From Schoenoplectus triqueter (Eukaryota; Streptophyta; Magnoliopsida; Poales; Cyperaceae), in contig CAXKVV010000062.1 in assembly GCA_964058805.1 (NCBI GenBank), positions 186,001-250,000 on the forward strand: a DNA stretch of 64,000 nt, in the 5' to 3' direction. The notes beneath the pieces are model-generated. The model worked only from the letters and a program-made list of their open reading frames with translations. It did no database searches and was not told where the DNA came from. Shown here one piece after another: positions 746 through 44,581 of the stretch; position 1 is the first letter of the stretch, and each line of letters starts with the position of its first letter. Both the position numbers and the translations under genes were made by a program.

Positions 746-855
746 CTTGACATTGTTTAACTTTCTATCAGCAACATCTTTGAAATCGGTTCCGAACTTC
801 TGACGGATTTTTTGAAGCTCCACTAGACAGTCATAATTAGGATACCATTTTAGAT
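746..855 (-). CDS. RHD3-like: Cassette 4, exon E
   Basis: 110 bases, residues 919-955: (D)[20 protein letters not shown] then [16 protein letters not shown]. The [10 protein letters not shown] stretch is the closest of the four E exons to ordinary RHD3 (KIREKLCRDI), fitting its place next to the unduplicated rest of the stalk. Donor GTTCGCC. The next exon lies below position 1. Confidence 0.9.
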
Positions 856-1262
856 CTGAAAAGAGTAGTGTGAAAGAAAGAAGATATCAAGTAGAGTGTA
901 GAATTGATTTCACCTCTGATTAAGAGAATATTAGTATGTTATATGTATGAAGAACAACTTTTTGTTTACAACCTTGACTTGTAATCGGGATTGATGAAGT
1001 AAACTTTGTATTTTTTTGAGGTAAGTAATTAGTGCTAAATTTAATCTTTTTTGAAATAAAGAAAAGATTCCACGGGGGTCAATCCCCTGCCCTTTTGGAA
1101 ACAAATAACAACAATAAGTTGAAACTTGTAAACAACGTGTGGAATTGTTTGGTTTTAAAGGTTTTTATTCATCATTTAATTAAATCTAATCAAATATATT
1201 TTAGTGTTAACCATTCATCAACCGCAGTTACGAGTTTCAGAACATATGATCATTAATAAATG

Positions 1263-1322
<60 letters not shown>

Positions 1323-2238
1323 TGTTACGATTAGTTGTGAAGTACAAAACGTTTTTGTACTTCGCATCGTATCTCTCATTTTTAAATTCAAAATACACAT
1401 CCGACCGTTAAAAGTGTTCTCTATATTGAAATATGTTTGAAGACTAAATTTTAATATTTTTTAGAATTTTTTTTCTATTTTTTTGGAGGGGATGAAAATG
1501 CATTGAGTTTATGATTTTTAATAAGAACGATTTTCTAATCCTCAAAAAAATAGAATTTTTTTTTTAAAAATTATAAAATTTTGTCCCCAAACATATTTCA
1601 ATATAGAGAACATTTTTAACGGTCGGATCGATATTTTAAATTCAAAAATAAAAAATACGATGCGAAGTACAAAAATATTTTGTACTTCACGACTAACCGT
1701 AGCATAACTCAAATTTTAGACTATTGTGAAAACGTTAGCATTCCGAGCTCAAGTGCATACGGCTCAAATTTTATCGTAACACGTCCAAAATTTAAAATTC
1801 TCATTCTCGTTAAATTCTTCATATCAAAATATTGAGGAATATAAAAATTTAGGGTATTTCGAGTTTTCTAAGTATTTATTTTAGATTTTTAAAAATCAGC
1901 ACTAAAATAATAATAAAATATTAAATTATTATTGCTGATTTTTAAAAATTCAAAATAAATACTTAGAAAACTCCAAATACCCCAAATTTTTGTATCTCTC
2001 AATATTTTGATATGAATAATTTAATGAGAATGATAATTTTCAATTTCAGACGTGTTACGATAAAATTTGAGACTTATGCACTTGAGCTCGAAATGCAAAT
2101 ATTTTCACAATAGTCTAACTCTATATATATTATTATATAGCAACAGTAATTCAATATTTTATTATTATTTCGGACGTGTTACGATAAAATTTAAGCCGTA
2201 TGCACTTAGGCTCGAAATGCAAATGTTTTCACAATAGT

Positions 2239-2291
<53 letters not shown>

Positions 2292-5200: not shown

Positions 5201-7766
5201 ATTAGTTTGGATATAGTGTCCATGTAATACTAATAGATCTGTTAAAATGATGTTCTAGAGAAGAGGGTATCATAAAGTACTTGCTTCAATCAAACAACTG
5301 AGTAAGAACCCCTCAGTTGTTTAATTAATTCCAACACCTTGATTCGGACCCAATTCTCTCGCTGTCAGTGTACATATTTTCTATAATTTTCGATTTTGAT
5401 ATAAAACAATCAATGTGTTATATCATGTTGCTAACATTTTGATAAATTAGAGTTCATTTTGATTTTTCTCAAGTTAATTTTCTGATAGCTCAGTTTAATT
5501 ATCAGATGTTCCCACTAAATTGAACTTCATTGTCTTATTCTACAATTAGGTTCAATACTTGTACTGCTTGAACTAATGTATCATTTTTATAAGAGCGACT
5601 TTTGGTGAATAAATATAGTTTGTATACTAATATCAATTTATTAATCTATTTTAATCTAAATTCTCTGATTTTTCTGGGACAGAATGTAACACAGTGAATT
5701 CTTGGGTGGTGATGCTGAAAGCAGCCAAGGATGTGTTATACTGTTTGTAATTTGGACATAAAGTTTAATTTTCCATTGCCCACCGAGTTTCAGAGCATAC
5801 TACCATACTACTGTGCTAGATTTAATAAAGTAATCAACTATAGTAAATTTACTATAGTAAATCTCAACACACTGTTTGTAATTTTACATTGTAACACAGT
5901 AGTATGATAATCCATTTTTCTTCAACGCTACCGTAACACAATTTAGCATTGCCTACCATAGCGCGCCGTACTAATATTTTTTCCCCCCTAGTAGTGATCT
6001 CAATTAAAAAGGATGGTAACAGTTCAGAGAAGTCAATGAAAAAAGTGTACGTGTGAAATTTTCTTTAAAAAATTACCTTCAGCTGTCGGTGTTTGATCAT
6101 TGAATGGTTTCAGGTAATTAGAATTAAGCACTTCAGTTACAGAAGATTCATCCAGTTCCTTAAGCTGCCTCAATTGAGATGCGAGATTTGACCTTGCCTT
6201 GAAAAGTATATCATCTGTCATGTAGAGCATCCTCTCGTAAAGTCCTTCTGAAAACCTCTGGGATCATGGACAAATAAAAATTATAATGATGTTAATCTAT
6301 CAATCATCTGGAAATTTTTTCATTATGCTCCGGTCAAGATAAATAAACAAGACGTAACAATAACTTTTCAAAAAGGAGCCCTAAATAAAACTGAGGAATG
6401 CATATGCCTCAAAGGAAACGAACCGAGTAAAACAATTAATTATTTACTTGTCATTTCAATATATTTTAAGCAATTAAATATTAACTAATTTATAGTTATT
6501 CTTAATTAGTATATATAAGCCTTAATTAGTAGTAAATTATGAAATAAATCAAAAAAAAATAACTAAATGAGCCAGGTTGGAAGACGCGTATATTTTTTTA
6601 TAGAATTTAAATGTATGATAGTATAAGACATAAATTAATTATTTTTATTTTTTACTTTTTAAAGAAATTAAAAAAATTTCATTTTTTAAATATGTGTTGT
6701 TTCATAGAAACGATCATGTTATTTAGAAGGGGTGGGATCCCTTGATAACAAATTTTTGTTTACAACCTTGATACCCAACTTGATATAAATACATCGAAAA
6801 TCTTAAAAGTAGAAATTTTGTTTATAAACACATTCTTTAACTTTTTTTCCCTATTAAGTTGATTATCAAGGTTATCAAAAAATAGTTTTCAAGGGATCCC
6901 GCCCTATTTAGTATATGCATTAATTCTTCATGCACTGTTTTTAATTAATTCATTAAATAAATATATTAGTTATTATTTCTTTTCATAATGAAATCATATA
7001 AATTGAAATATCTGTATGCATTAAGTACTGACTTTCAATTATAGAATAACGTTAACATCCCTAATTAAAATGTGAAATTTGAAAAAAAAATATTGAAGCT
7101 TAGCATAAGCCATGAATAATAAAAAAAATTTATCAATCTTTCTTAAAAATTTAATAAACATACATGTTAATATAGGTTTTCATTATATATGTTTGGATAG
7201 AAAAACTAATGGAGCGATCAAATTTGATGAAACACAAAGTTTAATGACTAAAAAAAAGATAAATAAAAGTTCAGTAACAAATATAGATTTGAGACATAGC
7301 TTAGTAACATTTCATGAAATTTATCCCAAAGAAAGTAATTATGTACAAGATACTATAATGGATAGAGTTCCATATATGTATAAATTAAGAACAATCCAAA
7401 ATGTTTCCACACAATTTGGGTTAAGTTTGCATGGTAGATATGATCAGTGCTGTGTTTAGTTTCTTCTCCTCTGATTTTCATGAATTTTAATTTATATCGT
7501 TTGTTGGGAGCTAGGACAGACAGATTTTATTAATAATATGTTTTATTAAATTAATATTATTAAAAATAAGAGTGAGAAACGTAAAATTTCAAATATACGA
7601 ATGGCAGCGCGCCACTGCCAGTGGCGCGCTGTTTGAATTTACGAAACGCGCCACTGTCAGTGGCGCGTTTCATTTTTTTTATGAAACGCGCCACTGCCAG
7701 TGGCGCGTTTCCGGTTTTTTTTTTTTTTTTTTTTTACGAAACGCGCCACTGCCAGTGGCGCGTTTC

Positions 7767-7807
<41 letters not shown>

Positions 7808-8225
7808 GAAACGCGCCACTGGCAGTGGCGCGTTTCCTTCTTATATATACAAAATGCACGCAGGCCACTTGCGTTGCGCGGTGTTTCATTATTTTTTTGA
7901 AACGCGCCACTGGCAGTGGCGCGTTTCGTCCGCGCCACTGCCAGTGGCGCGCTGCCATTCGTATATTTGAAATTTTACGGTTTTCAGTCTTATTTTTAAC
8001 AATATTAATTTAATAATACTTATTAATAATAAAAACTGTAGGACAGACAGAGAACTCACCAATAGGAGCCTCTTCTCTAGCTCGGCCTTCTCTGCATTCC
8101 TCATAGCACTGCTAAATGATGCAGTTTCATCTTCATACCTATATATGTTTTACTACATCATTTGAGACTGAGTAACAAAGGTTTTGAAATGCCGGTGGAC
8201 CAAACATGTGAATCATGCTCGTTTA

Positions 8226-8263
<38 letters not shown>

Positions 8264-8660
8264 TAGGCTATGGTGTTATGCATAGCATGGATCATCCCTG
8301 TGTTATGGCTCGATTATTCGTTATCAAAGTGTAAATGGTCAATCTAACCGTACAAAATAATTTTAATATGAATATCTTGACGTAAATTAAATTTTATATT
8401 TTTAAGATTTTCTCTACTATTTTTTAAAATAGTTAGAAAATTACCTATTTTGAATGGCTCATAATAACTAAATCAAGTGATTTTCTAACTATATTAAAAA
8501 ATAATAAAAAAATTTAAAAAAAAATTAAAATTTAGTTTACATCAAGATATTTATATGAAAATCATTTTGTATGGTTCAGATCAACCATTTAAACTTTGAA
8601 AACGAAGAACAAATCCATAACACGGGGACGATCCGTGCTATGCATAGCACCATAGCCCAA

Positions 8661-8704
<44 letters not shown>

Positions 8705-11700
8705 ATTTCATTATAATAATGAAGATAATATTAAGAATTTGGGTGCACCTATTCTTGCGGATCCCCAGATTACTAAAAACGGCTTACTTGCTATGGAATG
8801 ACAGAACGAGCAGGAGTGCCAATGTGCTCAATGTTTACGCCAAAATATTTTTATACATCTTCGAATACTTAAAATTATCATAATATGTCGTGAAACAAAC
8901 GAAAAATAAATTGTCACAACGAATATTTTATTATGAATATTTAGTAATATGTAATTGTCAAATCTTTTTAATAGAAAGAACTAATTATTTCCCTTTTCTA
9001 TATATCACCAGTCTATACAATTTGTATATAACATTATTCCGAAGGAAGGACTTAGTTGATCGAAGAAATGTACCCTAGTTAATGCAGGTTAATGCATCTT
9101 TTTACCCTATTTACTATAGTTTATACAATTTGTATATAACATTATTCCAAAGGAAGGACTTAGTTAATGCATATTTTCACCCTGTTCATTTACCTGGTAA
9201 GTATATCTTTGCGAAGAATGGAAAATTCTTTGGTGAACTGCTTCGCGGGAATATTAGATAAATCATTCATCCAAAGTGCCTGAAGTTCATAACGATTAGA
9301 AAATTATTCCCTACTTACTATAAGTTCGAAAAGGCTAAGGGAAAGAAGTAGCAGCATCATGAATTGATATTTCTAACATACCTGTTCTTGCTCAAATTTA
9401 TCTAGAATCTCTTTCTTAATCTTTTTACACATCAATACGGAGCGCTCATCCTGCACATATATTATACATATAGATTATGGTGAAATTAGTGATTGTACGT
9501 ACTACTGATAAAAGTGATAAAAAAAGATCAAAACTTTATAAGCTAGATATATAGTAGTTACAAGCACCTCAAAGTACCACCAATTGTTTTACCGTTATTG
9601 ATATCAATTTTATTATTCGGGTTTAAAAAAATTAATATTATTGTGAATGATTGTATTATTCAGCTTAAAACACCACTAATTAGTGCGCAAAATATGTTGT
9701 ATGAAGCGATAACATTATTCAGCGCCATTAATTAACTCATTTATTTTTCTTTTTGGAGAAAAAAATGAGGGCATATATATACTTTTATTATTCAGCGCAT
9801 TTACGTGTGCATTCATTTGACGATCTTCCCAGTTCATTGGAATGTATGGATTTCCATTTTCCAGTACGGTAAAAAAAATACTATTGTTCTATAGAATTGC
9901 AATTTAATTAATTAACTTCAAGCCCTCCGGTCAACAGAATATATTTCCTTGTAGGCTAATAATACTATAAAAAATGTTGAATCTAACATTTCTTTAATTC
10001 GGGTAATTTTTACATTAAAAAATAAAATTGAAATTATAAAAGAAAATATTATTTTAAAAAAATTATAAAAAGAAACGATCGCAGCCAGTCCGTGGCCTAA
10101 GTCTTAGCATTAACTTCCGACGCTCATAACTTTCTCATCGTTTGTTAGAATTTAACATTCTTATACTTTTTGAAAAGCTAATTGAGTGCTCTATAACATA
10201 CTAAAATTCATAAATTTTGGATCATCCAATTAAGAGAAAAGAACCCCGAAACACAAAAAAGGTCTAAAATAGTATACTAAAATTTCAATGATCTTTCTAT
10301 ATTTCGAGACGTTTTTCTCTCAATTGGCTACCTGAATTCATGAAATTTTAGTATGTCATAGATCATTCCATTAGATTTCCAAAAAGTATAAGAACTTTAA
10401 ATTCCAATAAATTATGAATGACGGAAGTTGACGCTGAGAGTTAGACCGCGAACTAAATCTGTGACCCTTTTTTTTTATAATTTTAATTTTTTAATTTTTT
10501 ATATATAAAAAAGACCCATTATCAAAATAATTCTTTGATGCAAACATATATAAATGCGCTAACATTATTAAATATGTTAAGATACATATGAAGTTAACCT
10601 GAATAATCTTTGCCTCCTCTTCCGCATGATTTCTGAGGTCAGTGACAAACTTAGTCCGAATATTTGGAAGTTCAGTGTCCTGGTATGGAACCCATTTAAG
10701 ATCTGAAAAATAATCACGTGGAAATTAATGAGTTCTAAATAGGATTGTACGTAAAATACGGAAACAAATTGATTTTGTTTTCTCTTCTTTTCTATTGAAT
10801 CTTTATCAACTCCTTTAATTTCGATTTAATAAAGTTTACATATAATAGGCTATTCGTCAGCTCTCCACCTCGTGGAAACAACAGTATGTAGGAGAATCGA
10901 GGAAAATAAGTACACATGTACTGAAAATTAGTAGGAAATTTACCAGCTTCTGTAGGTGTATTGTCATCGAACTCTTTCAAGTAGGGCTTTATAACATACT
11001 CTATTGCAGAATTATCCAGCTTAAGCATTTTCTCCACCTCAGGACGCATATTTGACCTTGCCGAGAAAAGTATTGCACTTGCTAAGTGGTGCATTCTATC
11101 ACGAAGTCCCTTCTCGAACCTCTGGGAGCAAGGACAAGAGAAACTGACAAAGTTAATTACATATATATTATAATCCATGATAAATAATCAAGAAAAGTAG
11201 GCTGAACCTAATTATACAGAGGCACAGAAAAGCAGAACCTTATTCATATATACCGTCTGAATTTGTATCTTTAGTTATCTTTTCATTTTCTAGGTTAATT
11301 ATGGATTCTCGACATTTTTGTATAGTGGTCGTGACAAAATGACAAGACAGTCTTTTATAATTTACTAAGTTCATTAAGGATTCCCGACGTGTTTGTAGAG
11401 GTAGTGACATGGTATGTAGCACGTGTATAAACGATCTACAAGTTCATATATACTCTTATTTCAGGCAGATATAGAACCTTTCAGTTTAATTCTGATAGAA
11501 GATAGGTATGTGTGTGTCTTTCTTCTATTAGTTTAACACCCAAATTATTTTGCAATTTGGGTTTTACGTATCTCACTAATGGCTTGTTTCCGCTCTATGG
11601 ATCTCGCAAATGGTCTGACCGCAAAATTTGTATATATAACTACGTACAAGACTTCGATGATCATGGACTGAAGTTGCATTGGACTAAACATATGTAAATT

Positions 11701-14700
11701 GAAGAAGTAATTTTTTTCATCAATCTAATTTATCTATGTTTGAATCAAAATTGTCAGGTAGAATAATGAATTTCCCCTTGCATTATTCTCAGCTGTTCGC
11801 TATTAATTAATCTTCTTTAGCAAATTATGTTGCTCTGTTCATTATTCTCTATTGAATGCAGATTTGTTGACTACTTACTCCATAGAGTTCCATATATGTA
11901 TAAGTAAGAAATAGTAAAATTAACTAAAACATGGTTGATTAATAGTTGATCAGTAACATTAAAGTAATATTGTCTTTTGTCTTCTCCCAACCTTTTCTTA
12001 ATTAATTTTATCTGTGAGAACTTAAACAGACAGAGGACTCACATCTAGGAGTTTCTTTTCCAACGTGGCCTTCTCTTTATTCCTTGCAGCGAATATAAAT
12101 GATGCAGTTTCTTCTTCGTACCTATATTATTAATTACCAATATCACATAGCTTTAGTACCAAGTCAATTTGAATACAGTTTATTACAAAAGATAAGACGG
12201 CTATGGAATGGCAAAGAACGGCAGGAGTGCCAAACGTACTATATATACATGGCTGCAAAATTTACGCAGAAGTACGAAATTTCGTGCATTTCAAATGATA
12301 CGTAAAACATAAAGAATCATGTACGTACTATCCATATATAGTCACATTAGATTTTGACGTCTCTTTTGTTATTGACTATAGCCAACACGTAAGTTATACG
12401 AATCTATAAAAAATTTCTCTTGACAGAGGAAAAAACGGTTCCTCTTTTCATAGGAGAGGTTCCATATTGAAAACCGAATATGAGATATTTTAAGTATATT
12501 TAAAATTATGTGGCTTATATATATTAAAAACATTTGTTTAGTGACATTGATTTAACCAGTGCATGTAAATTAGATTGCATCTTTATCTAATAAAAAAGAG
12601 GGAACTTTTCCATTTCTTCAGTAAAATTTAAGGGCGATAATCACTTTGACGAAATGAAACAAATAATTCACTTCACACTTGTATTCAAAAGGACGGACAA
12701 AGTTGAAGAATTTTAATTAGTTCAACCGTTCAATGTATAAAACCATAAATGCTTCTTGTAGTTACATTCTAATATTTTACCTGGTAAGCATATTTTTGTG
12801 AATCAAGGAAAATTTTGCAGTGAAATCCTTTACATTAATAGATAAATCGGCCATCCAATTTGCCTGCAATGCATATAAAATAACTTGAGTTAATCATTAT
12901 AGATATACAAGAAAAATGATTTTCTAATTATAAAAAATAGTAAGAAGATTGTAAAAAAAGAGAGTTTAAAACTAAATTTACTTGAGCGGTTTAGATTGAT
13001 TATTTTCACTTTGAGAATGAAGATACTGATCCATATCTTTGGGTGATTGGTGAAAAGCATTTTACCATGCATAGTAGCCTCACTATATAAAACTTGGGCT
13101 ATAGCACATTACGGATCACCCAGTGATATGGAACCGTATTTTCATTTCAAAATTCAAAATAATCGATGTGAACCACTAAATATGATCTTTATATGTAAAT
13201 TTAATTGTAAACTAAAATTTTATATATTTAAAAAAATTATTATTTTGTAGATAGTTAGTAAATTGCTCATTTTGATGGTTCATTATATTCAAATTAAGTA
13301 ATTTTTTAATTATATAAAAAAGTAAAACATTAAAAATATAATATTTGGTCTACTTTTAACTAAATTTAAATATAAAAATTATGTTGAGCGGTTGACATTT
13401 ATTATTTAGACTTTCAAACCATAGATATATGGATCCACATCACTGTCTGATCTGTGATATACATATTACTAGCTCAACTCTCTCTATATATATATTTATA
13501 GATTTTGGTTACAGTGTTACTCATAGCACGGATAGTCCGTGTACTATAGATCGTTTATTCATTTTTAAAGTTCAAATGATTGATCTGGTACTCAAAATAA
13601 TTTTCATATTAAAATTTAGTTATAGACCAAATTTTATATATATTTAAAAAAAATACTATTTTTTACATAGTTAGGTATTCACTTGATTTAATTATTTGGA
13701 GACATTCAAAATAATTGATTTTCTAACTGTTTAAAAAAATAATAAAAATATCCTTTAAAATATAAAATTGATCTACAACTAGATTTTCACATATGAAAAT
13801 CATTGTGAATGGTCGGATTGACTATTTAAACTTTAAAATGGAAGAAATGATCCGTAGCACAAAGACCATCTGTACTATATATATAACTTTAAAGACCAAC
13901 TATACCATCTGTACTACGCATTGTATCATAGCTAGGCCTCATATATATATATAAGTTATTGTATATCGCCGAAATACAAATGATGACCACAACATCAGTT
14001 TGCAATATCCGAAATCTAATTCCAAGTTATTCAATAGATCTATATATTAAAAATCTGATAGAATACCAAAATTTATTACTTTTTAAGAACTTTTAACTAT
14101 TTTTTCAGATTTTTTATTTTTTTTGCAAAAATAAAAATAAAATAAATGATTTGTATATATACCAAATTGGTTCTACTTTGAAAAATCTTAAAAATGATAA
14201 ATTTTGTATTCTATAAGATTTTGATATGAAAAATTTATTGAGCAACTTAGATTTAAATGTCGAATATGTTAAACTAAAATTTCATTCATTAGTATATCGG
14301 GCAATATTAAAATGCTTGTACGCCACCGCCAACTATATATATATATATATACTATTGTGAAAACGTTTGCATTTCGAGTCTAAGTGCATATGGCTGAAAT
14401 TTTATCGTAACACGTCCGAAATTCAAAATTATCATTCTCATTAAATTCTTTATATCAAAATATTGAGGGATACAAAAATTTGGGGTATTTTGAGTTTTCT
14501 AAATATTTATTTTTGATTTTTGAAAATTAGCAACAATAATTCAATATTTTATTATTATTTTAGTGCTGATTTTTAAAAATCCAAAATAATTACTTAAAAA
14601 TTTAAAATACCCTAAATTTTTATATCCCCTAATATTTTTATATGAAGAATTTAATGAGAATGATAATTTTAAATTTTGAATGTATTACGATAAAATTTGA

Positions 14701-14748
14701 GCCGTATGCTCTTGGGCTCGAAATGCAAATATTTTCACAATAGTCTAA

Positions 14749-14785
<37 letters not shown>

Positions 14786-15163: not shown

Positions 15164-15198
<35 letters not shown>

Positions 15199-18100
15199 GT
15201 TGTGTTATGGTTCATCACGAATAGGGATGACAATAAAGTCTATGGTTCGTCCGGCCTACCTGAACCTACCCGACCCGATGGCCGACCCACCCAGCCCGGA
15301 GGTCAAACGGGTAGGGTCGGGTGGTTACGGGTTTAGGGTGTGGCCCGCTCGCCCGATCCATAATATCGATAATATGTAATATGTATTTATATGTGTTATG
15401 TATAATTGTATAATTATATATTAGTAACTTATCAAATTGGATAAAATTAATAATTTAACTAATAGAATGTTCATCTAAATTATTTTTTTTAATTAAATAT
15501 CATAATTTATAAATTGAGTACTTGAGTTGGTTCAAATATTTAATAATTTTTAGACTTAAAAAAATAACTTATAATATGATAGTGTAAATATTTAATAATA
15601 TTTTAGTTTAAATACAATAATCATTGTCTAAAAATATAATGTTAAGAAGAGAAAAATCGTGAACCAAAAAAATATTAATTGATTAGGCAATAATTTAATT
15701 AAAAAATCTAGCAAAAAATATCGTTGACAAAGTCGGGTCGAGGCGGGTACGGGCAGGTAGGCTCGTCAAGTATCATGAGCGAGCCGGGTCATCAATTTTA
15801 GGCCCAGAGGTAAGGGCCGGGTAGGCCGGGTCTAGGATTTTGAAAGACGGACCAGGCTCCGGGTTTAACATAAACCCGGTCCGACCCAGACCATTGCCAT
15901 CCCTAATCACACAATGCACGGTGGGGGTGGTGCATTAGATTTAAATCTCTAATTTCAAATATAGATATGTTCGATCCGAACCATTCAATCTACTCTCCAT
16001 CTAAAAATATATTAGCAAACCAAATTTTATATTTTTTTGGAATTGATTTACTATTTTCTTGGATGAGGAGAAAATCATTATTTTTGGACGAATCATAATT
16101 CTCAGATCAAATAATTTTCTCCCCATCTGAAAATACAGCAAATCAATTGCAAAAAAATAAAAATTGATTTACTAATATATTTTCATATGGAGATTAAATT
16201 GAACGATTTAGATCAGTCATATCTAATTTAAAAATTAGAGATCTGGATCTGATGCACCATAACACAACTATATATATGTATTCTTACGAGTGATAGAAGT
16301 AATTAAAGTTTAGTGATACTTTAAACATACCTCGTTATTATCAAACGAGTCTAGCATCATTTTTATGGTCCTTTCAACCTCGGATGTGGAGTACCTATCA
16401 ACCTACACATATATACATATAAATTATGGTGAAATAAGAAACTGTACACTAGTCTACTGATAAACGTGATAAAAGAAGATCAAACTGTAAGAATATCGAT
16501 AATTCCAAAATATTATTAATCTCAATAACGTTATCGATACACCAATTTTATTTATGACAATAACTTTTATTATGTATGCAACTTGTACAATATTAAGCAT
16601 TTTTATTATTCATCTTAGAATAATAATAATCTGAATAATGAATTACTCATTAATTTAAGTTATAGAATAAAAACACTATATAAAATAAATTACATAATAT
16701 AGCCTAATAATTTACAAAAACTTAATTTCATCAAGTTGGTAACGATCGATGATGATATTTATATAATTAGGGGCGGAGACATGCATATGGACCTTCTATT
16801 TGTCTGCTTTTTATTCAAGAAAAAAAATGTAAAAATATGAATAGATTAAAAATATCGTTAAATTATGCTCCATCCTGAAAATTTTGTCCAACCCCGTTTC
16901 ATATCCTGGCTCTGCCCCTCATATTGTGGGAGGGGATCACTTGACACCCTTATTTTGAATACCTTAAGAGTGAATTTCAAATCCTAAAAAAAGAAAAAAA
17001 AATCTACAAACTTATTCATAAACTTAACTTATAGATTGATTATATTTTAAATAATTTGAGTGTTATTTGATGTTCTATCATAGGACATCAAAATTATATG
17101 ACCATTGCAAATTTCATGCAATTTGACGGTCCTTTCATATTCTATATCAAAGGGCATCAAAATTGTTAACTACTGCAACAGTCTAAATTTAGTGAATTTT
17201 GGTGAAATATCAAATGACACTCAAATTACATAAAATTTGAAACATAATCAATTTATAAGTTTAAGAGTACATTTTTTAATTTTTTATTTCTTTGAGATTA
17301 ATTTTTTATAAGACTGTCAAAATATTAAGTGGTTGTCAAGGATTTCTTGGCTATCTGTATTGTTTACTTTCACCATGCATTCAATCCTTCAATTCATGAG
17401 ATAAATTGGAAGGTTGTCTAAACAACAAAAAAATATATTATGAATATAATATTATTGATATAGCCATCGATATGAGCTTTATTATACACATTAAATGTGA
17501 GTTGTCATGCATCTTAATTACTTTATTATGCAACATATTTTGTATAGCATTTTCTTTTATTCAACATAAGTATCGTTATTATGCATAATAACTTATTTAT
17601 GTTGAATAGTAGTAGTATTGTACAAAGTGAGTTTGCATAACAAAGTCAATTAATAACATGCATAACAACTCATTTAAAGCCTGTATCATCGATGATATTC
17701 AAAATTGTATCCCTACATCAACTCCCAAACTAATAAATATTCGTACTTCGACGTATGTATGGATTTCCAACGGTGATTAGGATATGAAAGTTGCAATAAA
17801 ATTAACTTCAAGCCCAATCAACGGAATATATTTATATTTCCAAGAACAATTGGTGATTAGGATATTTTTATGCATCTATATAGAAATGTGCTAACATTTT
17901 CAATCAGCTCATGAATTACATGTAGAAGCAAACCTGGATATTGTGTGCCTCTTCTTCGGCATGTTTTCTGAGATAAGTACTGAGATTATAAGTGAAAGAC
18001 TCCTTCCAAATAGGAAATTCCACTCTATAGTCTTCGAACGGGTACCATTGTAGATCTGGAAAAAAAATCAAGGTAATTAGCGATATTGTAAGAAAGATAA

Positions 18101-21100
18101 AGTACAAATGCAGACCTCCTCTTGATTTTGATTGTATGTTAATAATATATTTTTTTTTAAAATAGGAAATTATTTATCTTATATATAGATTTATGAATAA
18201 AGCTAGCGTGAGCTAGCTTAAGTTCACAAAGTCTTTTTATGAGTTTAATTCAGAAAATATAACAAATGATCATCTCTAAATTTTAATTTATGTTGTTTAA
18301 TGAATTCTTTATACAAAAATATTATGGGACAATTATTTTCTATTTTCTGAACTTTTAAGTATTTATTTTAGATTTTTAAAAATGATTCTAAAATACTAAT
18401 AAAATATTTAATATTTATATATGAAAGTTGGTCACCTTAAAAAATATATATTTAACATATATACTTCAAAATAAAAAAAAATTATCACATAAGATTTTTA
18501 TATATCGAATTTATTGAGCAACACAAATCAAAATTTAAAAATAATTTGACAGATTTTTGAGTTAAGCTCACGAAAAACCATCCGAGCTTAAGCTCATACT
18601 AGCTTTACTCATAGATTTATTATTTTCAGTAATATATGTGTCATTTAATTAGTTGATAATCCACCACCAATGGTCATTGAGTAATTTATACTGTAATTTA
18701 ACTTAACTTTTATTGTCCTAGATGGAATATACATCAAAGAAAACTTTTACGAAATGAAATTTAAAATTGAACGAATCTAAAGGTACAAAAGTACTCTTTA
18801 AACTATTTTTTATTTTGAGTTTAATTAATTTATCTGTCAAATCATTTCAAATACTGTACAAATTTGACCGTCATCAATGAAATATGAAATGATACTCAAA
18901 AGTTTGAAATTGTTTATATATAGTTTATATACATTTTTTTCTACTTTTGAAAACTTACCTGCACCAATAGGTGTATTATCTGTGAAGCGTCTCAGGTAGG
19001 TTTTTATAACTTCTTCTATTGCATTTTTATCCTGCTTAGCATGCTCCTTCAACTCAAGACCGATATTTGATTTTGCCGAGGAAAGTATTATATTTTCCAA
19101 GTCTTTCATCCTATCGTCAAGCCCCTTTTGAAACCACTGAGAGCAAGGATCAGGGAAATTGATAAAAGTTAATTAGTTAATCTACGATAATCATCTGATT
19201 AAAAAAATAGGCTACGCTCAAGATACAGAAACAATTGGGACAATACAGACAACTGAAACCACTGCATGATGTACATACAATTAAGATGACTGAGACAAGG
19301 ATTAGAATAGATTATTAGACACTGCAAATTTTGACATAAACATGCCAGATCCCCAGAAACAGTCCGGTGAATAAGAGAGTGGCGTTTTTACTTTTCAACA
19401 CAAGATAGTGTTGGAACTACAAGTTGACACGTGTAGTTCGTGTCACATTGGTTCCAGAGGACAAAATCAAGAAAGGTATCCAGGATTGATTCTTGATGGA
19501 TTGGAGATCACTCTAATTAATTTGTTGCTTGCTAATATCGGCGGTATTACCATGTTTAATGTATTGAGTGATTTCATACTACAATTGTGTGTTATGTTCT
19601 AAATAGTGGAAAGATGCGCAGATTATAAAAAGAGAACTCTTGCGTAGAGAGCTAAGAAAAAAAAGGGAAAAACAAAGAAAATACAATTCACACAGAAAAA
19701 AGAGGAAAAAAAGAAAATACAATTCTGTGTGTGAGTTGTAATCGAATTCTTATAATGAAATAAAAAGCATGTGTGTATTTATCCGTGGAGTGCACTATAG
19801 GCGATGCCACGTTAAACTCTCTGTGTTTGTTTGATCTATTCTCTGTGTTGCTGTAATTTTGTCATGGTATCAGAGCAGGAATTCTAGACCATTTTATCAC
19901 TTCAATCATGGCCGACAAGTCATCTGAAAAACCTGAAGTTGGGGAGGCGTCGAAAAATGCCGCTCTCCTAGAAAAATTAACTCAACTCCTGCTACAACAC
20001 TCATCTCCTAACATGACTCCAACCGAAGGTTCTGCACCACCCATCTCTGTGAAACTGTATGGTGCCAATTATAGTCTGCGATCTCAAGTGGTAGAGATGC
20101 ACATCAAAGGACGAGATAAATTGAGACACATCACCGGCTTTTCAGACCGACCGTTGCAAATAGATGTCTCATTTCGTAAGTGGAGTATTGATGATTCAGT
20201 TGTGAAAGGTTGACACATTAATTCACTGGAGCCATGACTAATTGGCAATTTCATCAGTTTGCCGACTGCAAAAGAGGTTTGGGATGCAATAGCTACTACA
20301 TGCTTTGACGACAGTGATGCATCTCTTGTGTATTATGTAAATAAGAGAGTTGCAAAACTCAAGCAAGAGGGATGACTAGTTGAAGGATACTACAGCAAAT
20401 TGCAAATCTTGTGATAAGAGAGATTTTCAATGGCCTAATCCGATGGAGTACTCTACTGACATCGAGAAATTCAACTCCTATGTTCAAGAGAGTAGAGTTT
20501 ATATCTTTCTAGACAAACTGGACGACCATCTCGACAATGTGAGAGTGGATGTGCTTTAGATGCAAACTTTTCCCACTGTTGAACAAGCATTTGCCCGAGT
20601 TCGAAGGGAAGAAATGCGCCAGATTGTGATGATGAAAGGAGACGAGGTGGGCAACATTTCAGTGGCATTAGTTTCTCATAGATTCAGATCAACAGAGATA
20701 AATTTTACTCAAACCAAAATTGGACCCCAAAACAAACATAAAATGCACTCACTGTGGGGGTTCAGAACATACCAGAGAAAACTACTATAAGTTAGTAGGA
20801 TATCCCGATTAGTGGAAGAAGCAGGAAAAGAAGAAACAAGATGGTCAAAAGGGATGTACGACTATCATGATGTCTGCACTAGTAGATCCAAACCAGAGTG
20901 ACATAGGCTCGACTGTGCATGGTCAGAACAGCGATACTGGTACTGTTGTTGTCAGTCCTAACAGTATTGCTGCTGATTCACATAGTGGAGCTGCGCACTC
21001 CATGTCATTTGTGCTTCAGAGACCCGAGATCTTGAGCTCTAATCCTGGTATGATAGGTAAATCAGCAGCCCAAGATAAAATTTAATTTTCTGAAGATAGT

Positions 21101-27100: not shown

Positions 27101-28788
27101 GAACTCACGGATAGGAGCGTGTTCTCCAGCTGGGCCTTCTCTGCATTCCTTACATCAATATCACATGATGCGGTTTCCTCATCGTACCTTTGTTGTATAT
27201 ATGACAGAATTTTAATAACAATTTTTATAAGTGCCGTTGGAGTAAACATTTGAATCATGGTATATATATGACATATAAGCATATAAATTCCATTTTAATA
27301 ATAAAGAGTTTATGCTAAAATGCAAAAATTCTTATACATGCCCAGATTATTTAAAGGGGATAAATTGCTATGGAATAACAACATAGAACAAGTAGCTACT
27401 GTCAATCCATCGGAAGTATTTTCATACATATATCTTCGAAGTTATTAAAAATTAACTTAATATATCGTGAAACAAGTAACAAATATACAATCACATTTTG
27501 AACGTCTTTTCTGATATTAAATATTTAGTATACTTAATTGTTTAATTATTTTATTAGATATAATTAATTCTTTCTGTTTACTATCAACAGTGTTTGTGCA
27601 TTGTATAAGATTTTCTTTTTTTTTTCGTTGACATTTAGGGGTGCTAATTAACAACTTTGGGGAAATTGAAGTATTAGGTTAGTGCGAAATATTACATTTG
27701 AATTAGTTCAATTAATTTAAGCAAAATATTTGAAAGATACCGCTGTTGATATATCTTTAGTACCGATTTTATTATTCAAGTTAAATGAGTTATTGTTCAT
27801 ATTAATAACTTTATGATATAACCTGTTCATATCTTCAGCCCACATTTCATTAAACTCTGCAGGGAACTTCTTTGCAGGAATGGATAAATCATTCACCCTA
27901 TGCGCCTGCGATATTAATGCATATATATAGCGATTAGAAAATATTCTAACAGTTAGTAATGGTGTTTAGTATTCTATTTTAGAAGAAGAAACATTAAGTC
28001 ATTTTTAATGAAATTTAAAGCATCAAATATTTTTTGAATCAAATAGTAAAATATGTTATATTTATTTTCAATAAAAGGGGTGTCAAAATTTTGACCCGAT
28101 CCAACCGGAACTTGACTCGACTCAAAATGATTTGAAAATAAATGGGTTATATTAATGATAACCTGACTCGATCCATTAATACCTCTAATTAATATTATAT
28201 AATAATAAAACATAATCATATTATAAGATACAATTAAATTTGTGTAATTTTATTATTTTAATATATTATTAATACTACTAAGTGAATAATTTTAAATTTA
28301 ATAAAGTGTTTGAAAATTTTAGAGGCATCTATATATGTTTATACAATTATTATTAGTTGTAACAATACAAGTATCATTAACAATATTATAAAAAAATACA
28401 ATTAGTATAATAATAAAAGTGCCATAATAATTAATATTAATATTTATAATAATATTATATTATTAATGTCATGTCAATTATATTATTATTTAAAATTATT
28501 ATGCTTATTGTAGGAAGAATACAATCATAATGTAAAGTAACTGAATAATGGACAAATTAAGAGAAAATATGAATAAAATACTTGTAAAGTAATAAAATGA
28601 AAGAAACTGAGCTCTCTTGCGGAATATATTTTCTTCCTTAATTCTGCTTCCATTTATTACCAACCATCCCCAAGAAAATAGAATTAACAGCATCATGAAG
28701 TGATAGTTCTGACATACCTTTTCTTGCTCAAATGAATCTAGAATCTCTTTCTTAATCTTTTTGCACTTGAATGTAGACCTCTCAACCT

Positions 28789-28865
<77 letters not shown>

Positions 28866-31800: not shown

Positions 31801-34800
31801 TATCAATTTCATAGAACAAGAGAAGTAAAGGGATATGTCTATTTTAAAAAAAATAATCAAAAACCCTTAGCTAACAGTTTTTTAGCAAAAATCATTAGTA
31901 AAATTTTTAAAAAAAATTGCAGCATCCTTTGCTAATGGTTCTTAGCTAAAAATCATTAGTAAATGTCCATCCAGCGCTCCTCATTTCCTAACGGTTGCTT
32001 ATATCTTTTCTAATCCCTCATTACTAACGGATGCAAAACCGTTAATAAATTACTTTAAAAACCGTTAGTGTTACTTGTTTTTTGCATAGTGTAAGCTAGT
32101 CTTTTAGAACTAATGCTCCAAATTTAGAGAGTACATTCTAGATTTTAAAATTTACCATTCATTGACTTAGTATTAAACAAAGTAAATTCAGCGCGTGTAT
32201 TTAAGCATTCATGATTTGACGATCTTCTCAAACTATTAGAATTGTGTGAAAGATAATGCACGTCATTGTCTTTTAAACTACTGTCGTCTCATTTGGATAT
32301 ATATACGGACACAAATATAGTTTAAAATAAATTTTCCTTGCGTAGGTGTTGTACTCACATCAATCACTTTTACATTCACATTAATAACATTTATACGTGC
32401 GTTGATACAACAAATTCTAGAAGTGTCAATCTATACTATTATATAAAACATCTAAGAATTGGAGGGTTCATTTTTTTATCATGATAATTTTTTATTATAT
32501 CAATTTTATCCCTCAATTAGACGGATAATATTTATTTTTGGTTGATCAAACGTATGTGATCGCGTCCATTGATCGCCTTTTTCTCTCCATTTCTTTCCCT
32601 TATATACTATTATTTTCATAATATTATTTTTTTTATTTAGAAACCTTATGCATATTTGGTAAGAATTTAATGGTGATAATATATGTTAGAATAGTTTACT
32701 TTTCTTGCCATAAAAATGATGAATCATTAACTCATATTGTGCAAAAATCTCATCCAAGATTAAATATAGTCTTTAATATAGGTTTTCTCTATAATTTGGT
32801 GAATTTATAATTTAATATTAGATAAATATGAATTTTTTTATCTTATAATATTTTAATGTTTAAATAAAAGAGTCTACTGCAACGCGCGGGTATATAGCTA
32901 GTTAATTGAAATGTATTTGGATGTCCATTTTCCAGTAAGTTAGAAAAAAACACCGTCGTGCCAAGGAATTGCAATTAAATTAATTAACTTCAAGCCCTCC
33001 AATTAACAGAATATATTTCCTTGTAGGCTTAATAATACTATAGAAAAAATAACGAAGCTAACATTTCTTTGTTTGGTGCATATATATATAAAATGAACCT
33101 GAATAATGTTTGCCACTTCTTCCGCATGTTTTGTGAGCTCAGTGAGACACTTAGTCCGAATATTTTGGAGTTCAGTGCAAAACTTAGTCCAAATATTTTG
33201 GAGTTCAGTGAGAAACTTAGTCCGAATATTTTGGTGTTCAGCGTCCTCGTATGCAACCCTTTGTAGACCTGAAAAATAATCAAGCGGAAATTAGTGATAT
33301 AGGGCCATAAAGATTAATTATAATTTATTTCCATCAAATATGATTAAACTTAAAACCCTTGTAGTTTTCATACAATTATCTTTGTGTTCGATAAAATATA
33401 TTCCAAATGACATTAAGTTATATTATATTTGAAACACAATAAATGTACAAGTTCAAATGGCATCTTGCATGTATGAATTTTAAAACACAAAGATTCCGAA
33501 AATTCAAAAATTAACTGTACGTACACCTTTTTTTTCAATTTTTTAGATTCTTTTAGTATTGTTTTTTTTATCAAAAAGATTTTGATCTAGTCTTCAAATT
33601 TTATTAATCTATAAATATTACATAGATCATTAGACATGATCTTTGTATTAAAGATTATAAGAAAATAAAAAATAAAAAAATAAATCTTAATTTACGCTTC
33701 TATACCAAGCTGATATTCTATTTTTATTTCTCTCACAAGGTCAAGAACTGCCTTCTCTTATTCTCTAAAAATTCTATTGCATCGCTCTTTCCAATCGTTA
33801 AAACAAGTGAAAAGTTGTAATCTCCTCCAATGTAATTTTCCAGCATGGTCAAATATAATTTTTAACTCCCCTTTCTTGTATAAGTCGGAATGACTCCAAT
33901 GCATGAATACAACATTATGTATATAGCTTCTGATGTGTCGAACTGTTTCACAGTCTGTAAATAGATATTGAATCGTTTCTTCATCTCTAGCGCACATATA
34001 ACAAAAACTCGATAATTGCCAACCTCTTTTTTTTCAAATTATATGTTGTTAATAAGGAATTCTTCAGCATCAACCATGAAAAAATCTGTATTCTTGGTGA
34101 GGCTTTTAGTTTCCAGATATTAACTAGATTAGAGCTCAGCAGTGGGCCATTAGCCATGAACTAGTACATTGATCTCACAGTAAAGTTATTTTCCAATCTC
34201 AATCAAACACCTCATCTTGTTGTTGATCAGATATGGTAATCAGAGAGATCTTTTGTATCAGAACAGTGAGTTGTTGCTGCTCCTGATGTGCAACTTGGAT
34301 TCTAAGTGTTGTAATCCATTCACCATTGACCAAAATTTTTGCAACTGAATTCATTTTATTCTCCGTCAGTTGATATAAATTAAGGAATGCAGAACATAAA
34401 GGTTCTTCTATCCAGCAATCTTCCCAAAATCTTATCTTTTGCCCATTACCCACTTAGAATTTAGAGTGAGCAATTGATAACATCCTGAACTATTCCTATA
34501 CGCTTTTCTAAAACATTGATGCATATGCATCCTCCCATGGTTTGTACATCAATGTGCAATGTGGAGTTACTTCTTTCCACCACTTATTAGTCGTCAGTCA
34601 AAATCAAATTCATTTGGCCAACAATGATTTGTTCATGATATGAAAATCTTTGACACCAAGTCCACCATACTCCTTACTCATTGTGATTACTCTCCAATTT
34701 ACTAGGCACATGGGGTTTTTTTTTCTTTGATTTTCTTTATGCCCATGTCAAAGAAATCTTCTTCTGATTGCATCAATTCTTTTAACAAACCACTTTGGCA

Positions 34801-38981: not shown

Positions 38982-39055
<74 letters not shown>

Positions 39056-39616
39056 TGATGTTATGGTGCTTCGCGAAGCACAAAAATTTTTGTACTTCGT
39101 GTCCGTATCTCCAATTTAAAAGTTCAAACGGCCGATCCAAACCGTTGAACATCATTTTCATATTGAAATATCATTGGAGATCAAATTTTATATATATATT
39201 TTTAATTTTTGTAATTTTTTAAATGAGTATAAAGTTCGCTGATAAAACGATTTCTCCACTATAACGATTTCCCCCGTATCTTGCAATGACTTTTTTCTTC
39301 GGGCTCGCATACTCCATCATCAGGTAGTAAAATTGCTACACGGCAAAATCTCGGGAGTTGGATAAAAGCGTCCCTAAAATAACCAACGGGTTGGAAGGAG
39401 CTTCTTGCTCCACTCTTCTTTTTTCCCAAGAACGCAGTAAGGGATGGACGGTATCTGAACACCTTGAGTTGCTCCCACGAGTCCCACCAAGGCATTTTTT
39501 GTGAGTCGGATAGCTAGGATCGTCGACCTCCGGAACCCCTTGTACTCTTTGAAAGAAAGACCGTGTTCAGTCGATTAACTCTCTTGGAGTCGGCCCTATC
39601 TCTCTTTGCCAGCTTT

Positions 39617-39665
<49 letters not shown>

Positions 39666-42600
39666 GGACACACACCAATACAACAATACGAGAATCAACG
39701 AAAAGAAGTATACGTGAAAATTAATAGGAAAGTTACCAGCTGCGGTATCTGTATTGTCATCGATGTCTTTCAGGTAGGGCTTTGTAACATGCTCTATTGC
39801 AGAATTATCCAGCTTATCCAATTTCTCCAGCTCATGACGCATATTTGACCTTGCCGAGGAAAGTATTTTACTTGCCAAGTGGCGCATCCTAGCAAGAAAT
39901 CCGTTGTGCAACCTCTGCGAGAAAGGACAAGAGAAACTGAAGTTAATTATTTACTTAATCCATTATATATAATCACCTCATTCTTTTTTCTTTTTGTTAC
40001 GGTCCGCTCAACATAAAAAAAAAAAAGAGCCCAAGACAGCGACCTATCAAAAAAACGGGCCGACAATTAAACTGATGATCTGGAATCCACACGCCCTAGA
40101 GGACTTGAGTTGCATTGGAACTAAGCTTCTAAATTATAATTATCACGTCATTGCGGCGGTCTTTAAAAAATATTATGTTATAGTTTATTATAGCTGAACT
40201 TATTGTACATCATATTTTTTTTATATTCTCTATTAATTTTCATTTAAACTAGACTTTCATAGAGTAACTAGATAACAATAAATTGTTTAAAGAGTTATAA
40301 ACTTATAATTAATCGGCACAAAGTCGAAATTTCTTTTCAAAATATCATTGATACCATAAAACCTAAATAATTTTCTATTCAAAATAATCTTAACAACCTT
40401 AAATTATATAATTTTTTTCATTAAAATGACTATAATATTATAACTATATGGGTCTCTCAAGTTGTACAAAATAAAATTTGAATAAAAATTATATTTTATG
40501 TCGAATAGCGCGCTATGCGCTATTGCAACTGTTATTACCGCTATAATAGTCATAGCTTAATGAGTTATTTTCACAATGAAATTTTAAAAAAATATATATA
40601 AAAAAATTTAAAGGCAAAATAAATTTATAGATATATTTTTCAACTTATATATCGATAGTATTTTAAATTTCATATAATTTAGATATCATTTGATAGTCTA
40701 TCAAAAACATCAATATTTTATATGATTTACATCGATTGTAATTTAACATTCTTTGATGGACCATCACACAATAATTAAATTATATGAAATTTTAAACACT
40801 ATCAATTTATAAGTTAAAGAATATATTAATATATTTTTTTATTTTTAAGATTCATTGAGAATTTTATTATCAAAGGATCGAAGTAATTTTTCATCAATCT
40901 AATTCGACCATGTTTGAATCAAAATGATCTGGTAGAATAATGACAATCCACTGCATTCTTTGTATGTCTATAGCAAATGATTGTGCGCGCCCAGTAAAAC
41001 TCGTCAGCTGTTCGCTATATATTAATTTAATTTCTTTAGCAAATGAAGTTACACTGCACATTATTCTCCAATAAAGAAATGCAGAAGCTTGCATTAATTA
41101 TAGTGAACGATCTTAGACAACACTCATTTAACAACGATTATATATCAAATCCGTTGTTAAAATGGCTCAGTGGTATTATTGTAATATTGAGAACTTTTTC
41201 AACAACGGTTTACAATATAAAAAACGTTGTTAAAATAGACTCTCATAACACCAAAAAACAGCAGAATCACTTAGTAACAGTTCCTTGAAGGAACTACGGT
41301 TAAACACAACCTTTAACAACGGTTCTGTATCTAGAACCATTATTAAATATTGTGTTTAGCAACTGTTCCTTGAAGGAACCGTTGCTAAATGGTCCTGCTA
41401 TTTTTTTAGGTCTGACATTTGCTCTTTTGCGCTCCCACCAATAACATTTGCTCCCACGGATTGTCCATCTCACCGTTCATTAATCCCAATCCAACGTTCC
41501 AAAAATGAAAAATATAAAACTGAAATCCCATGAATTGCCAACCTTTTTCATCTGTTTTCATATATAAAAAGAGATATCAGAGAGAAGAGAGAAAAGAGAT
41601 AGGAGAAATAAAAATTAAAATATGACCATTTTAATTTCAAACGGTCATAATTTTTAATAGGAAACTCCGATTGAGGCGTTTTATGCGGCCATAAAAAGCT
41701 AACAACGAAATTTACAGGGTTAACCGATTATGTTGTTACCATCATTTTCGAGACCAAAAAACCTCATCTTCAAGCTCAAAACCCCATTTGTATTTTTTTT
41801 CTATTTTTTTTATAGAAATTGTATAGGTTTTCATATTAATGTATGAGTAAGTTGTACGTATTTTTTGAGTAAATATTTTTTCATTTGATTAATAATTATA
41901 TTTCTTTTATATTAATTATTGAATGAATAATATATAATAATATTTGTTCTTATCTAATCAATATAACTCCATATTTATTGTTTACTTTTAATCAATACGA
42001 CTCAATATCAATCTTACTCGCACATTTTAAATTTAAAAACAAAAATAAAAAAAAATATTTTTTTTTGTTTTTAAGGTACCTTTAACAACGGTTTTTATTT
42101 AAAAACTATTGTTAAATGTCTTCCTGACATCTCCATTTACAACACATTTTTAACAATGGTTTTTAAATAAAAACCGTTATTAAATGTCTTCCTAACACCC
42201 CTTTACAATGAGTTTTTAACAACGGTTTTCAATACTTTTCCTAACACCCACTTTACTATCGGTTCCATAACTGTTGTTAACCTTGATCAACAACCGTTAT
42301 CAAAGATCGTTTCGCTCGTAGTGGTTGTATCTATAAACTGTAAATAAAACATAATTAAAACGGATCCATTGTACGAATTGCACCTGATATCCCATAATTG
42401 ATTTTTCTTGTGCTAATAATTAATGTTATGTTTTTTTCTTCTCATGGATGCGTATCCTAAATTAAGTTTATAAATGAGCAGTTAAAACTGACAAAGAACT
42501 CACATGAAGGAGCTCCCTCTCCAACTTGAACCTCTTTTTATTCCGTACTGAAGTCATAATTAATGTAGTCTCCTCATGATCATACCTGTGTTAATAACAA

Positions 42601-44581
42601 TATCTTGAAAATTTTAAGCAACAATATGCACACTAGCTTTGCACAATAGTCTGTCTCTCTACACGAAATTGGCTATTATTTCAAAATAATTACTGTTCAA
42701 GTTTCAAAATTTTTGTATCCGAAACATAAACCTACATAGATTGAAAACTTTTTTTTATAATACAAGCTATTATAAATTTTAGAATTTTGTTGATATTTTT
42801 AGTGTTTTTTTAGACTGTCCTAAAAATATTAGAAAGACATCTATATGTATGTATGTGAAAAAGGGTAATTATTTTGGAAATCACTAAAAATACTTATAAA
42901 TTCTAAAAGTAGTAAAAAAAAATATTATCCTAGAAGTTTGTTACACAAAATATTTCTTGAGCTACCGACATTGCGCACGGATATGATTTTGTAATTTAAG
43001 CTAGCTAGCTACATGCATTTCGATCCAAATTCTTGTGAAATCAAGTAATTTAAGCTAGCTAGATACATGCAAGATCTATAGATGATGCTTTTATTTACTT
43101 ATAACCAAACTGAGGATAAATTTGACGAACTTTACTTCAAAGTTCAAATAATTGCTGCCTCTGAACGCATTATATTCATATTCTATTCATTTACCTGGTA
43201 AGAATACTTTTCTGAATTAAGGAAAATTCTTCAGCGAACTTTTTTACAGGAATGGATAAATCGCTCATAAAATTACCCTGCAATGCATAGAAATTGGAAT
43301 ACTGTTTCGTTAATAATTATCTCTTCTTAGTTAGTCAATGAGAAAATAGAAGTGATGGAAACTTAGAGATAGTTTTACACGACCTTCTCTTGATCCAACG
43401 AGCCAAGTATCCGTTTTATAATTTTTCCACACGAGCGTTTGGACTTTGCAACCTACACATAAATGAATCTTAAGGTGATTAAAATAAGATCAAACTGTGA
43501 GGAAGATAAAATGTAGCAATTAATCAAAACTAAATATATAACAACCTTCTGATCCGCTGGCATAATCTTTTCATCGCGACAGATATCATCCCATATCTTT
43601 TCTGAAGAAATGGCAAATCTCGAACTATATTCCGATTGTTCTAGATTTTCTTTCGTGGCAAATTTGTAAAAGTGATCTGACAAACTTTTACACTGAAGAC
43701 AGAGAAAAAATAATTCAGCGAATTAAGTTATAATTTCTCTCATTTAAAACATACGAGGCAATATTTGCGATATTATATATATAGATGGGGAGGGATAGAC
43801 AATCTTTTCATAATGACACTCTAAATAAATTTAAGAAAACTTAAAAATATAAAAAGATTTGTACATATATTCTTCTAACTTATATATGAACTTTTGTGTT
43901 TTAAATTTTATGAAATTTAATTACGACTCAATAGTTTATCAAAGACTATCAAAATTTTATATAATTTAAAATAGTTATAATTTAAGTGTTTGATGGACCA
44001 TTAAAATGATAACTAAATTACATGAAATTTGAAACAGTATCAACATATAAGTTAAAAAATATATCTATAACTATTCTATTTTAAAGATTTTTTAATTTAA
44101 TTATTTAGAGTGTCATTATCTAGATTGTTATCTAAATAACGCATTGTCAAGTCCCAATAAAATATATATATATATATAGAGAGAGAGAAAGAGAGAGAGA
44201 GAGTAAAGATACCGTGAGCTTAAGCTCACGGAGGTCTTCCATGAGCTTAAGTCAAAAAATATCAAATCATCTCTAAATTTTAATTTATCATCTTCATTGA
44301 ATTCTTTATATAAAAATCTTGTTGGATGCAAAAATTTGGAATGTTTTGAGTTTTTTAAATTATTATTTTTAATTTTTTTAAAATGATGTTCAAGTGTTGA
44401 ATATATTATTATTATTTTTAGAGCTAATTATCAAAAAATAAAAATCATAACTTAAAAAACTCAAAACACTCCAAATTTTTGCATCCCATAAGATTTTCAT
44501 ATAAAGAATTTAATGAGGATGATAAATTAAATTTTGGAGATGATTTGATATACTTTTGGAGTTAAGCTCACGGTATATTTA

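Follow-up and report, generated by a model that had tools for sequence, protein, structure and literature searches.

A predicted RHD3-derived GTPase gene with four tandem stalk units, and its relatives, in the sedge Schoenoplectus triqueter

The stretch of Schoenoplectus triqueter (Cyperaceae) DNA analysed here is 64 000 nucleotides long (assembly GCA_964058805.1, contig CAXKVV010000062.1, termed C60, bases 186001–250000; hereafter the window, whose coordinates are used unless a contig is named) and carries a predicted gene for an RHD3-like GTPase in which one part of the stalk is encoded four times. Our gene model comprises 31 exons on the minus strand, extends over ∼64.7 kb and specifies a predicted protein of 1041 residues; it is composed of 10 GTPase exons (284 residues), 20 exons that make up the repeated stalk units (termed cassettes) and a terminal exon encoding a C-terminal tail (Table 1). 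The start codon was located at C60:250140, 140 bases beyond the window edge, and the terminal exon ∼395–514 bases outside the left end of the window. A first-pass annotation of this DNA had placed 20 exons on the minus strand between 43452 and 746, and their coordinates proved exact, with AG/GT borders and phases that fit. As the extent of the gene, 746–43452 correctly describes the cassette span, but the gene itself is larger, with GTPase exons spanning 43546–64140 and the tail exon outside the window. Across the 30 GTPase and cassette exons we found AG at 29 of 29 internal acceptors and GT at 30 of 30 donors, with all phases consistent. In scans of the window, neither tRNAs nor RNA families scoring above threshold were detected.

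The cassette exons are arranged as four in-frame sets of five (A–E), encoding 194, 177, 172 and 175 residues, the same figures on re-derivation as those first given, and exon phases are identical across the four sets (A 0-0, B 0-2, C 2-0, D 0-1, E 1-0). All four C exons end at a gtgagt donor; a supposed missing donor in exon C of cassette 2 was rejected, as every C exon ends five codons earlier, at this site. Pairwise identity between the cassettes is 39–57 %, and in a search of the genome sequence (partial, 82 Mb in 2086 contigs, such that all copy counts given here are lower bounds) the last D exon retrieved its three counterparts from the same gene at E-values of 2e-9, 4e-7 and 4e-5; the four sets are homologous well beyond chance. 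Exon E of cassette 1 is enlarged by in-frame internal repeats (LQNIRTK and LQNIWTK), in which it differs from the other aligned E exons. A cassette profile aligned nearly end to end with exons A–E of ordinary RHD3 (hhalign 96 %, E-value 4e-9, 157 columns), at a residue identity of only ∼13–25 %, and the ordinary RHD3 gene of this genome, on contig C889, contains a single set of these five exons, in unchanged order. In the RHD3 of Carex littledalei the equivalent region is residues 284–461, which is the half of the stalk adjoining the GTPase domain. Thus, the profile alignment and the exon order at C889 uphold the earlier claim that a stalk unit present once in ordinary RHD3 is repeated here. 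When a single, roughly delimited cassette was first scanned against Pfam, no family exceeded its cut-off.

The GTPase part of the model matched the Pfam family RHD3_GTPase (PF05879) over residues 47–275 with 210.3 bits (cut-off 42.4, E-value 4e-62), which bears out its first assignment to the RHD3/Sey1 type, and visual comparison with 48 relatives showed that its GTP-binding motifs agree with the columns conserved among them. The GBP domain PF02263 was also above its cut-off (30.1 versus 21.1 bits), far under RHD3_GTPase, and no GBP helical-domain family appeared in the Pfam list for the model. The best solved relative of the GTPase domain was Candida Sey1p (PDB 5ca8 and 5ca9; E-value 2e-33), the sequence match ending near the start of the cassettes (query residue 310 of 1022 in an earlier version of the model). 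Using the whole model as query, a protein search returned 20 matches, all of which contain the RHD3 GTPase domain and have an ordinary length (684–888 residues), with the top two at 34–35 % identity; with the cassettes as query, in a search that reaches only relatives sharing 5-letter words, none of 7999 scored candidates reached an E-value of 0.001.

The switch-I exon was found at nine places in the genome sequence, seven on C60 and two on contig C2081, and the D exon at 18 places, with the matched stretch free of stops in all. Assigned by order along the contigs, the cassette numbers per gene were 4 (the window gene), 4, 2, 2, 2, 1, 1, 1 and 1; copies besides the window gene and the two-cassette gene 2a were read in part only. 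As such, the family shows one, two or four units, and the early concern that all paralogs might be as long as the window gene does not apply. In sequence identity, the first cassette of the four-cassette gene pairs best with the first of 2a (68 %) and its last cassette with the second of 2a (66 %); the next best pair, involving cassette 3, reaches 57 %, and the DNA around these cassettes is collinear. In a small cassette tree the pairing of the last cassettes had a support of 100 (other inner nodes, 51–95). The same tree leaves the first cassettes of the two genes ungrouped, although these are the most alike; we accepted their pairing on account of the identity values and the collinear DNA matches. 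The simplest history is that a two-cassette gene gained two more cassettes inside. Downstream of three RHD3-like genes on C60 (∼168–179, 34–48.5 and 0–13.5 kb) we also observed the same 10–13.5 kb segment, 96–99 % identical. The ordinary RHD3 gene at C889 is closest to its counterparts in Carex littledalei (86 %), Carex rostrata (84 %), two Rhynchospora species (83 %) and Juncus effusus (75 %); between neighbouring exons, at C889 19800–20612, it shows no switch-I exon (QTTKGIW), which reflects either gene damage or an assembly gap.

In genome searches, both the canonical distal-stalk exon and the canonical hairpin exons were found at C889 only; the former had no match in C60:1–254000, and at the window gene no two closely spaced membrane segments were present. 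The description of the gene product as an RHD3 with a lengthened stalk is supported as regards the repeated unit but not in the form first given: only the proximal stalk is involved, the distal stalk and two-segment hairpin were not found at this locus, and a tail stands in their stead. The tail exon follows the acceptor TTCATTGCAG and encodes KIRNILNGLQFVGNIIISILSLVAPVLNTITSINQMNLN, followed by a stop; it specifies one hydrophobic stretch with a hydropathy peak of 2.09, the hairpin segments of the Carex protein having peaks of 2.25 and 2.14. From this sequence, the tail is predicted to anchor the protein in a membrane. A protein without a membrane part, an idea that arose from the failed hairpin search, was dropped once the terminal exon had been found. 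The tail exon is open in seven of the nine loci (the window gene, 2a, 1a, L034, L035, L036 and L037) and frameshifted in L033, and that of L038 was not found with the search pattern used. The tails of 2a and 1a are clearly related, their score being reached by 0 of 2000 shuffles. For the tail of the four-cassette gene, the shuffle test gives no support to descent from the canonical C-terminal half: in comparisons with three RHD3s its score was reached by 1329, 959 and 88 of 2000 shuffles, the last of these being borderline. For the 2a tail and Rhynchospora P0023 the score, at a site before the hairpin, was reached by 1 of 2000, and the remaining five comparisons of tails with RHD3s gave between 312 and 1561 of 2000.

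The introns contain several mobile or repeated elements. A long terminal repeat (LTR) element, which by eye we take to be Copia-like, occupies ∼19409–24850 in the intron between exons C and D of cassette 2; its three matched repeat pieces are 83–89 % identical, and thus the gene seems to have long tolerated it. Reading frames resembling reverse transcriptase, found on the minus strand at 34702–36852 between exons D and E of cassette 1, are presumably, as judged by eye, of the LINE (long interspersed nuclear element) type. Additionally, repeated inverted units around GCGCCACTGnCAGTGGCGC were seen at ∼7525–8038, ∼20 bases from the donor of exon C of cassette 4. This block sits between two matches to the second four-cassette copy, where it is seemingly absent, and a related piece is located on C889 near 30875; it has the appearance of an unnamed repeat that inserted recently.

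Table 1. Exons of the predicted window gene, in order of transcription
Feature	Position	Strand	Basis or remark
GTPase exon G1	63984..64000 in window, runs to 64140, start codon outside	-	P-loop GPQSSG
GTPase exon G2 (KSYLLNKLF)	59048..59114	-	AG/GT, phase 1-2
GTPase exon G3	58234..58330	-	gene model
GTPase exon G4	54770..54840	-	gene model
GTPase exon G5	54569..54632	-	gene model
GTPase exon G6 (ILVRD)	50848..50916	-	gene model
GTPase exon G7	50422..50469	-	gene model
GTPase exon G8	45510..45584	-	gene model
GTPase exon G9	45198..45254	-	gene model
GTPase exon G10	43546..43692	-	gene model
Cassette 1 exon A	43384..43452	-	gene model
Cassette 1 exon B	43195..43277	-	gene model
Cassette 1 exon C	42504..42585	-	gene model
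Cassette 1 exon D	39737..39914	-	D-exon search and gene model
Cassette 1 exon E, extra in-frame repeats	33099..33268	-	gene model
Cassette 2 exon A	28718..28786	-	gene model
Cassette 2 exon B	27823..27905	-	gene model
Cassette 2 exon C	27109..27187	-	gene model
Cassette 2 exon D	18959..19136	-	D-exon search and gene model
Cassette 2 exon E	17934..18055	-	gene model
Cassette 3 exon A	16331..16402	-	gene model
Cassette 3 exon B	12781..12863	-	gene model
Cassette 3 exon C	12043..12121	-	gene model
Cassette 3 exon D	10944..11121	-	D-exon search and gene model
Cassette 3 exon E	10599..10702	-	gene model
Cassette 4 exon A	9382..9450	-	gene model
Cassette 4 exon B	9194..9279	-	gene model
Cassette 4 exon C	8060..8138	-	gene model
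Cassette 4 exon D	6077..6257	-	D-exon search and gene model
Cassette 4 exon E	746..855	-	gene model
Terminal tail exon	C60:185605-185486 (about), outside window	-	open frame after acceptor, then stop

Selection was tested on one gene pair, the four-cassette gene and 2a, picked for its collinear exons. A neutral estimate was derived from the introns, with one of 12 intron pieces excluded (postD1, poorly aligned, identity 0.54), and the coding parts were simulated 3000 times with the intron substitution pattern. Between the two genes, introns have diverged by 0.16 substitutions per site, with 18.9 indel events per kb, whilst the coding differences keep the frame. Over 648 codons, 15.2 stops were expected under neutral drift and none was seen; not one of the 3000 simulations was stop-free. 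For the cassettes (342 codons), the ratio of non-synonymous to synonymous substitution rates (dN/dS) was 1.79 compared with 0.78 ± 0.16 expected, a value reached by none of the simulations (P = 0.012 for the excess in a simple Fisher test), and the dN of the tail, for which the alignment is doubtful, exceeded every simulation at 0.73. Moreover, the second four-cassette copy differed from the window gene at only one of 1341 coding bases (12 of 20 cassette exons compared), where ∼3 to 5 differences would be expected from the long, mostly non-coding matches around the two copies (29/7542 and 39/11803 mismatches, 0.2–0.4 %). The absent stops, kept frame and near-identical second copy make the objection that this is a decaying locus unlikely for the window copy, and we read the substitution data as suggesting that the window gene was held open by selection, its amino-acid sequence meanwhile changing either freely or by adaptation.

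For the structure, we used an AlphaFold model of the Carex RHD3, which has a mean confidence score (pLDDT) of 75, with ten-residue means of 80–96 over residues 291–470, and for which Sey1p was the best fold match (E-value 5e-25). In this model the cassette starts 2 residues into a helix (282–303) and ends inside a long one (431–478); as both ends lie within helices, joining end to start would put helix onto helix. The four units may be stacked as an extended rod.

At the level of predicted genes, these analyses establish an architecture, an open frame with consistent splice sites, a size series and a selection pattern. Our favoured interpretation, to which we assign a probability of roughly 60 %, is that the window gene belongs to a family of RHD3-derived GTPases in this sedge that is clustered, evolves fast and has members with one, two or four stalk units. 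We propose that in one RHD3 copy the GTPase domain may have been retained while the distal stalk and two-segment hairpin disappeared and a short hydrophobic tail was added at the C terminus, and that the five proximal-stalk exons, as a unit bounded between codons, would have been duplicated in frame to give the one, two or four units. The product would be a GTP-driven dimer, its stalk units stacked end to end, helix running into helix, to form a longer rod that the tail might fix to a membrane, most likely the endoplasmic reticulum (ER). Its role could be that of a tether, of an RHD3 modulator or of a GTPase of the defence type, and the traits under evolution would be the number of units and their surface. 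Judged on the gene model, the architecture of the window gene is very probably as described, whilst the odds for a membrane-anchored rod are about even. Tethering at the ER we can only infer, since the distal stalk and hairpin were found at C889 alone and a short, fast-diverging hydrophobic tail is present instead. A role in defence or conflict is possible though doubtful; it is favoured because of the selection pattern together with the gene clustering, and the fast protein change hints at such a role over a housekeeping one.

Several observations weigh against parts of this interpretation. The cassettes scored 16.9 bits with Sey1_3HB (model positions 2–182 of 419), below the Pfam cut-off of 24, and in a model of Prunus P0025, a protein with two stalks that served as analogue, the one helix (648–695) that spans the junction is predicted with low confidence there. 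The tails of 2a and 1a are less hydrophobic (peaks of 1.56 and 1.62), and the tail of the four-cassette gene is barely alignable to others (518 and 1620 of 2000 shuffles reaching the score). Cassette dS was 0.10 compared with a neutral expectation of 0.21, which is unexplained and inflates the dN/dS value, and cassette dN (0.184) was only slightly above neutral, 7 % of simulations being as high. Furthermore, dN/dS of the GTPase domain was no lower than neutral (0.74 versus 0.76), such that this domain appears neutral-like save for its open frame, and other pairs compared gave values of 0.43–0.96. When read by eye, the sister copies 1a and 2b look broken, the former through a one-base frameshift in exon G1 and the latter through a tail frameshift, and thus the family includes decay.

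The window gene might itself be a duplicate that is in decay or silent, lies among many transposons and has not yet acquired a stop, a view with which the old transposons in its introns, the near-neutral rate of amino-acid change in both domains and the state of 1a and 2b agree. Nevertheless, the lack of any stop over 648 codons, which no simulation reproduced, the preservation of frame next to introns rich in indels and the single coding difference from the second copy all run counter to it, and we consider it rather improbable. A different proposal makes the cassettes interchangeable, as alternative exon blocks of which splicing includes one, two or all, resulting in varied stalks and not one long stalk. 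All four start and end in phase 0, so any of them could be skipped in frame, and they are divergent enough to be different versions; however, one- and two-cassette paralogs exist as separate genes, and we think it unlikely that splicing provides this variety.

The intact GTPase motifs and repeated stalk would also suit a working ER fusogen with a simply longer stalk. As the distal stalk and two-segment hairpin were not found at the locus, this is in our view very unlikely: paired membrane segments are, according to excerpts of two reviews (PMC3866526, PMC12312388), a standard part of atlastin-type fusogens, and a gene lacking the hairpin would not specify a standard ER fusogen. Finally, separate tandem genes or collapsed copies could have been taken as one by assembly or prediction, and the contig does carry large near-identical duplications. 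The window contains a single switch-I exon, however, phases fit through all cassettes, the sets differ at 43–61 % of residues, unlike assembly repeats, and the architecture recurs in the second copy; such an artefact is thus scarcely credible. Overall, the predicted gene product is best regarded as a fast-evolving RHD3 derivative with a lengthened rod, probably anchored by its tail.

If transcribed as predicted, the family would present one GTPase rod in a natural series of lengths, with one, two and four units on otherwise similar proteins, and would allow a direct test of stalk length in atlastin-type tethering. The loss of the hairpin and the surplus of amino-acid substitutions in the stalk suggest the recruitment of an essential housekeeping enzyme for a fast-changing function. 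A bolder and, in our estimate, unlikely version is that sedges made an ER-fusion GTPase into a modular conflict gene, with unit number and surfaces diversifying under positive selection. By analogy with animal antiviral dynamin-like GTPases, to whose diversification that proposed for the sedge stalk units is likened, such proteins would be stationed at plant membranes, where they would intercept a virus, a microbe or a selfish element. Ordinary RHD3 is itself of consequence for viral spread: when it is mutated in Arabidopsis (rhd3), tomato spotted wilt virus advances more slowly (PMC4749231).

Among known systems, plant RHD3, as represented by the Carex littledalei RHD3-like protein (P0021, 837 aa), shares the GTPase motifs of the window gene and matches cassette exons A–E at the residues given above. 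It combines a single proximal stalk with a distal stalk and a hairpin, whereas the sedge genes have one to four proximal stalks and a short tail, the other parts not having been found; as these are two defining parts that were tested for, we consider the window gene an RHD3 derivative and not RHD3 proper. Sey1p provides both the closest solved GTPase domain and the closest fold to the Carex model. The yeast protein has a single stalk. Guanylate-binding proteins (animal GBPs and plant GBPLs) are likewise large dynamin-superfamily GTPases, from which the window gene differs in its domain scores (210 bits for RHD3_GTPase versus 30 for the GBP domain); animal GBPs act in innate immunity, according to an excerpt of PMC12489281. 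Within the reach of these searches we found no earlier description of the five-exon unit, the 1-2-4 series, the hairpin loss or the tail. The first-pass statement that no protein of this kind had been described agrees with the literature matches listed, of which the titles and abstract openings, with few subscription papers covered, describe no repeated RHD3/Sey1 stalk, but it is qualified by database proteins from Prunus with two tandem stalks. A Quercus protein (P0026) was not counted as a precedent, its two copies being 99 % identical and possibly an annotation or assembly doubling. The Prunus RHD3-like proteins P0025, P0030 and P0031, which are annotated predictions only, from three species, resemble the window gene in carrying a tandemly repeated stalk behind one GTPase domain, and their second copy begins at or near the exon A sequence; a Pfam scan of P0025 and P0030 gave two Sey1_3HB stretches in each. 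They differ from the sedge gene in that the whole stalk (∼360–387 residues, 82–88 % identical) is doubled, and not the half encoded by five exons. Thus, with three Prunus proteins carrying a doubled stalk, repetition of the stalk per se has a precedent in annotation.

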